This document shows, in pieces, positions 25,603 to 52,717 of a DNA stretch of 64,000 nt. Each line of letters starts with the position of its first letter. Position 1 is the stretch's first letter. The DNA comes from Haloterrigena gelatinilytica (lineage in GTDB: Archaea > Halobacteriota > Halobacteria > Halobacteriales > Natrialbaceae): positions 3,224,001 through 3,288,000 of the forward strand of contig NZ_JABUQZ010000001.1 in the NCBI RefSeq assembly GCF_013342145.1. The letters run 5' to 3'. The notes beneath the pieces are model-generated. The model did not search any database. It was not told where the DNA came from and saw only the letters and a list, made by a program, of their open reading frames with translations. The translations under genes were made by a program, and so were the position numbers.

Positions 25603-25775
25603 TGTTGGGTATCGTCCTCGAGTTCGATCTGTCTTCGCTTCGGTCCGCATCGACTCTCGAGCCGAGAGAGAACGCGTTCGCAACCGACGCTCTCGTTTTC
25701 GGTCACGGCCGCGGTTTCGCGGCGCGCGAAACCGTCGTAATCGGCAACCCGGCCGGTGACCGCAAACCGACTCAT
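25599..25775 (-). CDS. rpl18a: 50S ribosomal protein L18a (LX/L20a)
   Basis: A 58-residue protein with the LX pattern: N-terminal MSRFAVTGRVADYDGFARRE, central ESVGCERVLSRLESR, and the C-terminal KRRQIELED signature. It overlaps pfdA by 4 nt, matching the usual haloarchaeal order rpl18a-pfdA-ftsY. It is somewhat divergent, with two Cys residues. In many relatives tif6 lies directly upstream; here about 1 kb with two other genes intervenes. Confidence 0.85.
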   Translation of the reverse strand: MSRFAVTGRVADYDGFARRETAAVTENESVGCERVLSRLESRCGPKRRQIELEDDTQQ

Positions 25776-34518: not shown

Positions 34519-34541
34519 GACCGAAGTTTTGCTCTGTCGTT

Positions 34542-34671
34542 CGAGAGAGCGAAGCTCTCTCGTGACTGAGCGAATCTTCGATTCGCGAGGTCCGCGAGAC
34601 CGGAGGTCTCGCTTGATGACGAAAGACGCCTTCGGCGCCTTTCGAACCACGGGCGCGGCGAAGCCGCGCCC
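34542..34671. repeat. Run of five consecutive hairpins
   Basis: Directly after the DUF424 gene come five inverted repeats with 3-nt loops: CGAGAGAGC-GAA-GCTCTCTCG (34542-34562), GCGAATC-TTC-GATTCGC (34570-34586), GCGAGACC-GGA-GGTCTCGC (34594-34612), an imperfect GAAAGACGCC-TTC-GGCGCCTTTC (34621-34643) and GGGCGCGGC-GAA-GCCGCGCCC (34651-34671). TGATGACGA precedes the fourth and GAACCAC follows it. The rest of the gap to 34816 holds a GCTCGCTCACTTCGTTCGCTCG palindromic stretch and no gene. Transcription termination is one possible role. Confidence 0.85.
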
Positions 34672-52327: not shown

Positions 52328-52717
52328 ATGATTATCCGCTCGCTGTCGACGGACTCCCCGCCGTCCGACTCGATAACCGAAGCCGTCGTCGACGCGGTGA
52401 GCGACGTCGAACGCTGCGATCCGCTGACGCTGCCGCCGCTGTGGGACGTGATCGACTCCGAAGCGCTGGACGAATTGTTCGCACCGACCAGACGTGGTCA
52501 TCCTCGCGCCGGTCGCGTCGCGTTCGACTACGCAGGGTACGAGGTCACCGTCGCGGTCGACGTTCTCGAGGGCGAAGTCGTTCGAGAGGCGCAAAGCGCC
52601 TCTCGTGATGACGAGACGCCGGAGGCGTCTCGAACCACTCCCGCGAGCCAATCGGAAGCGGCCGGTTCCGATGACGGCGACGAGACGATCAGCGTCTCGC
52701 TCGAGGCGCTCGCGTAA
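52328..52717 (+). CDS. HalOD1 output-domain protein
   Basis: A 129-residue protein with a HalOD1-type domain at the N-terminus (SITEAVVDAVSDVERCDPLT and PPLWDVIDSEALDELFAPTR, then VAFDYAGYEVTVAVD), found in many haloarchaeal signalling or regulatory proteins; function unknown. The segment AQSASRDDETPEASRTT near residue 90-106 is encoded by a two-hairpin element inserted in frame (52583-52638). The C-terminus ends ISVSLEALA. Confidence 0.8.
   Translation: MIIRSLSTDSPPSDSITEAVVDAVSDVERCDPLTLPPLWDVIDSEALDELFAPTRRGHPRAGRVAFDYAGYEVTVAVDVLEGEVVREAQSASRDDETPEASRTTPASQSEAAGSDDGDETISVSLEALA
52583..52638. repeat. Two-hairpin element in frame in the HalOD1 gene
   Basis: Perfect inverted repeats CGAGAGGCGC-AAA-GCGCCTCTCG (52583-52605) and CGAGACGCC-GGA-GGCGTCTCG (52612-52632), separated by TGATGA and followed by AACCAC. 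The spacing sequence TGATGACGA and the trailing TCGAACCAC are the same as around the fourth hairpin at 34.6 kb, so this is a copy of the same family. Confidence 0.85.

Follow-up and report, generated by a model that had tools for sequence, protein, structure and literature searches.

An in-frame palindromic dimer in a haloarchaeal HalOD1 gene, probable copy of a non-autonomous element widespread in Halobacteria

The HalOD1-domain gene located in the window (the whole stretch of 64,000 nucleotides analysed here) carries in frame a palindromic dimer, which is probably a copy of a non-autonomous element that would be mobilised in trans after folding of a single strand and whose stems would be recopied. 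We infer the movement of this dimer from presence/absence patterns among related sequences. The window belongs to the 4.29-Mb main contig of the haloarchaeon G000, whose whole genome reaches 4.55 Mb; G001 (Haloterrigena salina), G002 and G004, which we take to be Haloterrigena turkmenica, are other genomes of the same genus.

The gene (52328-52717, + strand) is adjacent to radA and encodes a protein of 129 aa that matches the Pfam family PF18545 (E 5.6e-20). The full dimer lies at 52577-52638 on the + strand (within residues 84-104), where it is recognised by a covariance model with an E value of 5.8e-17. It is made, in this order, of a head (GTCGTT), hairpin 1, a linker (TGATGA), hairpin 2 and a tail (AACCAC), the stems and linker overlapping at their edge bases. 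Hairpin 1, CGAGAGGCGC-AAA-GCGCCTCTCG (52583-52605, + strand), has a perfect 10-bp stem and the 3-nt loop AAA, and hairpin 2, CGAGACGCC-GGA-GGCGTCTCG (52612-52632, + strand), a perfect 9-bp stem and the 3-nt loop GGA. The reading frame stays open through the dimer, which is translated as VVREAQSASRDDETPEASRTT and adds 20 aa in frame. The two perfect hairpins with 3-nt loops, held without any stop codon by a HalOD1 gene, had already been noticed in the sequence-only reading and are borne out by the sequence and by the PF18545 match. The extent of 56 bp proposed at that time has to be corrected: the hairpins (52583-52632) are real, but the conserved unit is 62 bp long, since the head GTCGTT belongs to it, and the net insertion is 60 bp. 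Perfect hairpins with a 3-nt loop and a stem of at least 9 bp are found seven times in the window, whereas 10 dinucleotide shuffles gave 1.0 on average and never more than 2.

The comparison of orthologues supports an insertion into coding DNA, since two genomes lack exactly these 60 bp whereas G001 has the dimer. Thus, the segment 52579-52638 (+ strand) has no counterpart in G002 and G004, where the gene and its flanks are present and exactly 20 codons are missing, the empty sites being GAAGT^TCCC and GAAGC^TCCC, respectively. No target duplication is seen at the HalOD1 insertion when it is compared with these two sites. The empty site of G004 is a hairpin by itself, GGGAGC-GAA-GCTCCC. In G001, the dimer is intact and shows 0/62 differences with that of G000, whereas 25 of the 325 other positions of the gene are different; this identity amid a diverged gene could result from a recent exchange or from a copying mechanism. 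The gene is adjoined by radA in G000 and in eight of the nine other orthologous loci examined, L020 being the locus without radA. Orthologues that would all carry the segment as non-palindromic DNA, which would have spoken against a mobile element, are not what is found, the site being empty in G002 and G004 and the palindrome intact in G001.

The dimer is inserted in the loop separating the last two beta strands of the domain. In the AlphaFold model, these strands correspond to residues 71-79 and 119-127, and the region between them is of low confidence (mean pLDDT 68.4). An alignment of 13 homologues reveals a short loop in the nine distant ones, a longer loop in G002 and G004 and the longest in G000 and G001; the protein length is 91 residues in G009, 109 in both G002 and G004 and 129 in G000. 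This loop also includes an older extension at the genus level, whose 3' part, PASQSEAAGSDDGDE (52640-52684, + strand), is itself able to form a hairpin. The older extension is present in G000, G001, G002 and G004 and missing in the nine other aligned homologues.

Further copies are carried by the same genome, as the genome-wide pattern search suggested from sequence alone reveals: TGATGACGA-N8..35-TCGAACCAC has six matches in the 4.55 Mb of G000 versus none for the backward-read control. With the covariance model, for which 150 of 8375 candidates were scored, G000 has at least 29 two-strand matches that correspond to at least about 13 sites, the weakest of which (L296) has no heads; six genomes of the genus have 11 to 31 two-strand matches each. 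The intergenic relative found at 34536-34650 (+ strand), directly 3' of a gene end (covariance-model matches G000:C1:3258536 and 3258587), does have TGATGACGA and TCGAACCAC in common with the HalOD1 element, as first noticed; it is, however, a four-hairpin version rather than a simple copy. Its two further linker hairpins have their own joints, CTGAGCG..CGCGAGGTCCGCG..CGCTTGA. The four-hairpin form is found also in G002 and G005, and its second dimer type seems nested in the first one.

Some other arrangements were observed. In G000, an open frame of 519 codons holds, around position 2037 of L296 (near G000:C1:2445546), a further multi-hairpin and stop-free stretch devoid of GTSG heads. In G000 and G002, one gene end carries a dimer inside a TTTTGC..GCAAAA palindrome (L090 9331, L086 11739, L083 about 5555), and in G001 the outer palindrome is kept while a single hairpin replaces the dimer. 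Another module, CGAGCGG-N-CCGCGAG (L116 1582, window 20727 and other loci), encodes ASG..PRA-like peptides in inserts and occurs 32 times in 1.16 Mb, versus 5 times for the reversed control.

The element is not restricted to this genus. The unit pattern GTSGTTCGA-N-TCGTSATSA is present in 118 of 125 genomes of the family, with 819 matches summed and one control match, and a scan of 84,980 species yielded at least 120 loci, all haloarchaeal (120/120) among the matches listed. From these 120 loci, 105 can be parsed into 107 full dimers, the other 15 not being full dimers. The heads begin with GTCG or GTGG and are fixed, as are the linkers, while the stems vary freely but remain complementary. 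In 106 of the 107 dimers, the base following GT in each head is the complement of the linker base found on that same side of the dimer. No dimer has identical stems on the left and on the right, 194 of the 214 hairpins have no mismatch and 187 have 3-nt loops, mostly GAA/TTC and GGA/TCC. The sequence GCGAAGC forms an unusually stable DNA mini-hairpin. The context, open-frame and TnpA/TnpB-distance counts given below relate to the 68 dimers (56-68 bp in length) from 80 of the 120 loci, whereas the parse and coding counts relate to all 120. Several sites of one genome can hold near-identical dimers. In G014, G062 and G030, copies have some flanking sequence in common, so that a larger carrier may be the moving unit there. 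The single match to a viral contig corresponds to a sequence without palindromic stems and was taken as a chance match. TGATGA was not retained as a box C motif, since GTGATCAC is also found as a linker.

Besides HalOD1 (L163), dimers were found in frame in six other coding sequences (seven of the 107 dimers; this count excludes the minus-strand reading of L116 as well as L211, a weak row, and includes L163). They lie in the genes of a dihydroorotase PyrC (L114), a glutamate synthase large subunit GltB (L116) and an AMP-ligase (L218), and in those of an IS200 TnpA (L134), the zinc-ribbon region of a TnpB (L190) and a 3' extension of another TnpB (L156). As for HalOD1, in-frame copies of other genes are missing in orthologues. 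Three of the six aligned dihydroorotase orthologues have no insert and the remaining three have different inserts; four of the five glutamate synthase orthologues have none and the fifth has a different one; all three AMP-ligase orthologues are devoid of insert. In these three enzymes, the insert reaches 37 residues (111 bp each), the dimer being included in a larger hairpin-rich piece. The dihydroorotase loop following VTVHAED (L114, L222, L223, L224) holds different palindromic inserts according to the lineage, and none in L229-L231. The tolerance of dimers in genes may be partly explained by their five open reading frames out of six, seen in 57 of 68 dimers.

The most likely explanation of these data is mobilisation in trans; hairpin copying is its main rival and probably also explains why the stems are perfect. 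The element, whose two hairpin units are inverted, provided with fixed heads and joined by a common linker, would have been inserted without visible target duplication in the common ancestor of G000 and H. salina. A single strand would fold, and an enzyme acting in trans on single-stranded DNA would excise and insert the dimer; this enzyme would most likely be an IS200/IS605-type Y1 transposase, either resident or transient. The perfect stems could arise from hairpin template switching during replication, one arm being copied from the other. The survival of copies in genes could be due to the near absence of stop codons and to landing in flexible loops.

No match to the Y1 transposase family (PF01797) was found in G000, G001 and G002. 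Among the 125 genomes of the family, 32 have no Y1 gene and 29 of these 32 carry the element. The number of Y1 genes is weakly correlated with the number of copies (Spearman 0.32), and copy counts do not differ significantly between genomes with and without Y1 (p 0.12). A Y1 transposase as sole owner of the element was therefore rejected, on account of this weak rank correlation, of the non-significant difference between groups and of the many Y1-free genomes with copies. No dimer was found near the TnpA loci of the genus in the flanks examined; among the 68 dimers, five have TnpA/TnpB at no more than 400 bp, versus 2.8% of random positions. Palindromes located at TnpB elements house some copies, for example in the CTCGGGGTC..GACCCCGAG context of L010, L055 and L151. 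The proposal that dimers always sit in the apex of an outer palindrome was abandoned, no excess of flank complementarity over shuffled flanks being found for 65, then 63 dimers; such a placement stands only for HalOD1 (G004), L010 and the G030 set.

Several other explanations have to be weighed against mobilisation in trans. According to one of them, the segment would be an old protein sequence deleted in G002 and G004. The genus does have both states and the GGGAGC-GAA-GCTCCC hairpin of G004 could be what remains from a precise loss; however, the segment is missing in all nine more distant aligned homologues, so that the loss would have to be exact and to have occurred at least twice, and its DNA is that of the family repeat, which makes this scenario very improbable. 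As for an effect of chance or of codon bias, high-GC coding DNA is indeed rich in short hairpins (25 with a stem of at least 7 bp and a 3-nt loop, versus a shuffle mean of 15), but this explanation is refuted by the pattern controls, which give zero or nearly zero matches, and by stem covariation, which is above that of every shuffle. Thus, for 30 distinct 60-nt dimers, 98.3% of the pair cells are complementary, with 83 two-sided changes versus 6 one-sided (G-U) ones, and none of 500 shuffles equals these dimers in share of paired cells, number of two-sided changes or covariation score. Stems that change strictly by Watson-Crick pairs, and hardly ever through a G-U step, are in keeping with a process acting on DNA. 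It is thus unlikely that the element acts as RNA, i.e., as a terminator, a 3' UTR stabiliser or a structured RNA that would be read through at HalOD1. Strong RNA folds and the position of several G000 copies close behind stop codons would suit such a role; against it stand the near absence of G-U pairs, the absence of any Rfam match in the window, the copies inside coding genes and the gene context. In this respect, the rough counts obtained with our own gene caller, which did not detect the HalOD1 gene of L163, a short one, reveal no preferred orientation of dimers with respect to the nearest gene 3' end (21 in the same direction, 20 in the opposite one), and place 13 of 68 dimers between divergent genes.

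The main rival would dispense with any transposase: template switching between hairpins would seed, lengthen and copy the palindromes, and recombination would spread them. Various data fit this explanation, such as the persistence of elements in Y1-free genomes, the strictly paired stem changes, the nested arrays and the other hairpins that arose at the PyrC site in other lineages. Furthermore, three of the 31 loops changed between G000 and G002 have been exactly inverted while their stems remained nearly intact, which is what hairpin inversion or recopying should give. However, slippage alone would not be expected to produce heads and linkers fixed throughout the class, nor cleanly empty 60-bp sites remote from any other copy, and template switching as the whole explanation is possible but rather doubtful. 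Flipped loops (GGA->TCC, GAA->TTC, GCG->CGC) were also noticed at 34594-34671 and 25712-25734 of the window by comparison with G002 (L084, L085) and G004.

REPINs and BIMEs consist of REPs arranged as inverted doublets, whose movement is ensured by RAYT Y1 transposases (PMC3116915). As described there, they resemble the haloarchaeal dimer by their inverted pair of imperfect palindromes, their conserved ends, the compensatory changes of their hairpins, their mostly intergenic location and their lack of coding capacity, whereas the dimer has a GTSG instead of a GTAG head, an archaeal host and units that are each a complete hairpin, joined by a short common linker. REPs usually exceed 100 copies per genome, according to PMC2817692, whereas G000 has about 13 sites, which is a lower bound, and no RAYT/Y1 gene. 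The view of a mobile REP-like palindrome entering coding DNA must therefore be qualified: the insertion and the form are those of such an element, but the GTAG tag, the RAYT/Y1 gene and the high copy number are lacking. The element thus works like a non-autonomous palindromic mobile element of REPIN/RPE type and falls outside REPs on GTAG tag, copy number and Y1.

Intragenic REPs and Rickettsia palindromic elements (RPEs), grouped in CGTC and GTAG super-families, are dimers that have entered unrelated genes in frame and lengthen their products by 20-30 residues, and the CGTC families apparently have no dedicated transposase (PMC3733652). The seven in-frame cases among 107 haloarchaeal dimers are comparable. 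However, CGTC-tagged REPs and RPEs have their CGTC tag by a stem starting with AT and a CCA-like tail, whereas the dimer has CGTC at the stem foot and on one strand only, and its stems do not start with AT and are far more variable. Neither "halo" nor "natr" occurs in the accessible text of PMC3733652.

The closest haloarchaeal precedent, compared by description only, is that of the SMR repeats of Haloquadratum, which according to PMC3119063 are short, have inverted ends, cause no target duplication, have no related transposase and move by an unknown route. One of them, SMR-A, is about 110 bp long, is highly conserved in sequence and targets the palindromes of IS605-type elements and PATEs. 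The dimer is likewise short, with inverted ends and no duplication (at the HalOD1 site), and some dimers lie in palindromes near TnpB; this likeness to the SMR-A set (HqIRS42, 43, 55) is drawn from their descriptions. By contrast with the 110 bp of SMR-A, the dimer has 56-68 bp and variable stems, although three coding inserts reach 111 bp. No earlier description of the dimer was found in a mainly open-access literature.

More broadly, it can tentatively be proposed that Halobacteria have a grammar of palindromic DNA words, in which heads and linkers would be invariant and stems would be continually rewritten by hairpin copying at the DNA level. These words would move without any dedicated transposase, could be nested and would supply new in-frame protein segments, so that loops of conserved proteins would grow step by step. 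The in-frame insertion of palindromes, which Rickettsia and some REPs of bacteria already illustrate, is now extended to archaea, with clean empty and filled sites, and the two-sided stem changes point to a copying process at the DNA level. This also bears on how small mobile repeats of the Haloquadratum type move without a matching transposase, and the genus analysed here lets the gain of a protein loop be tracked step by step.
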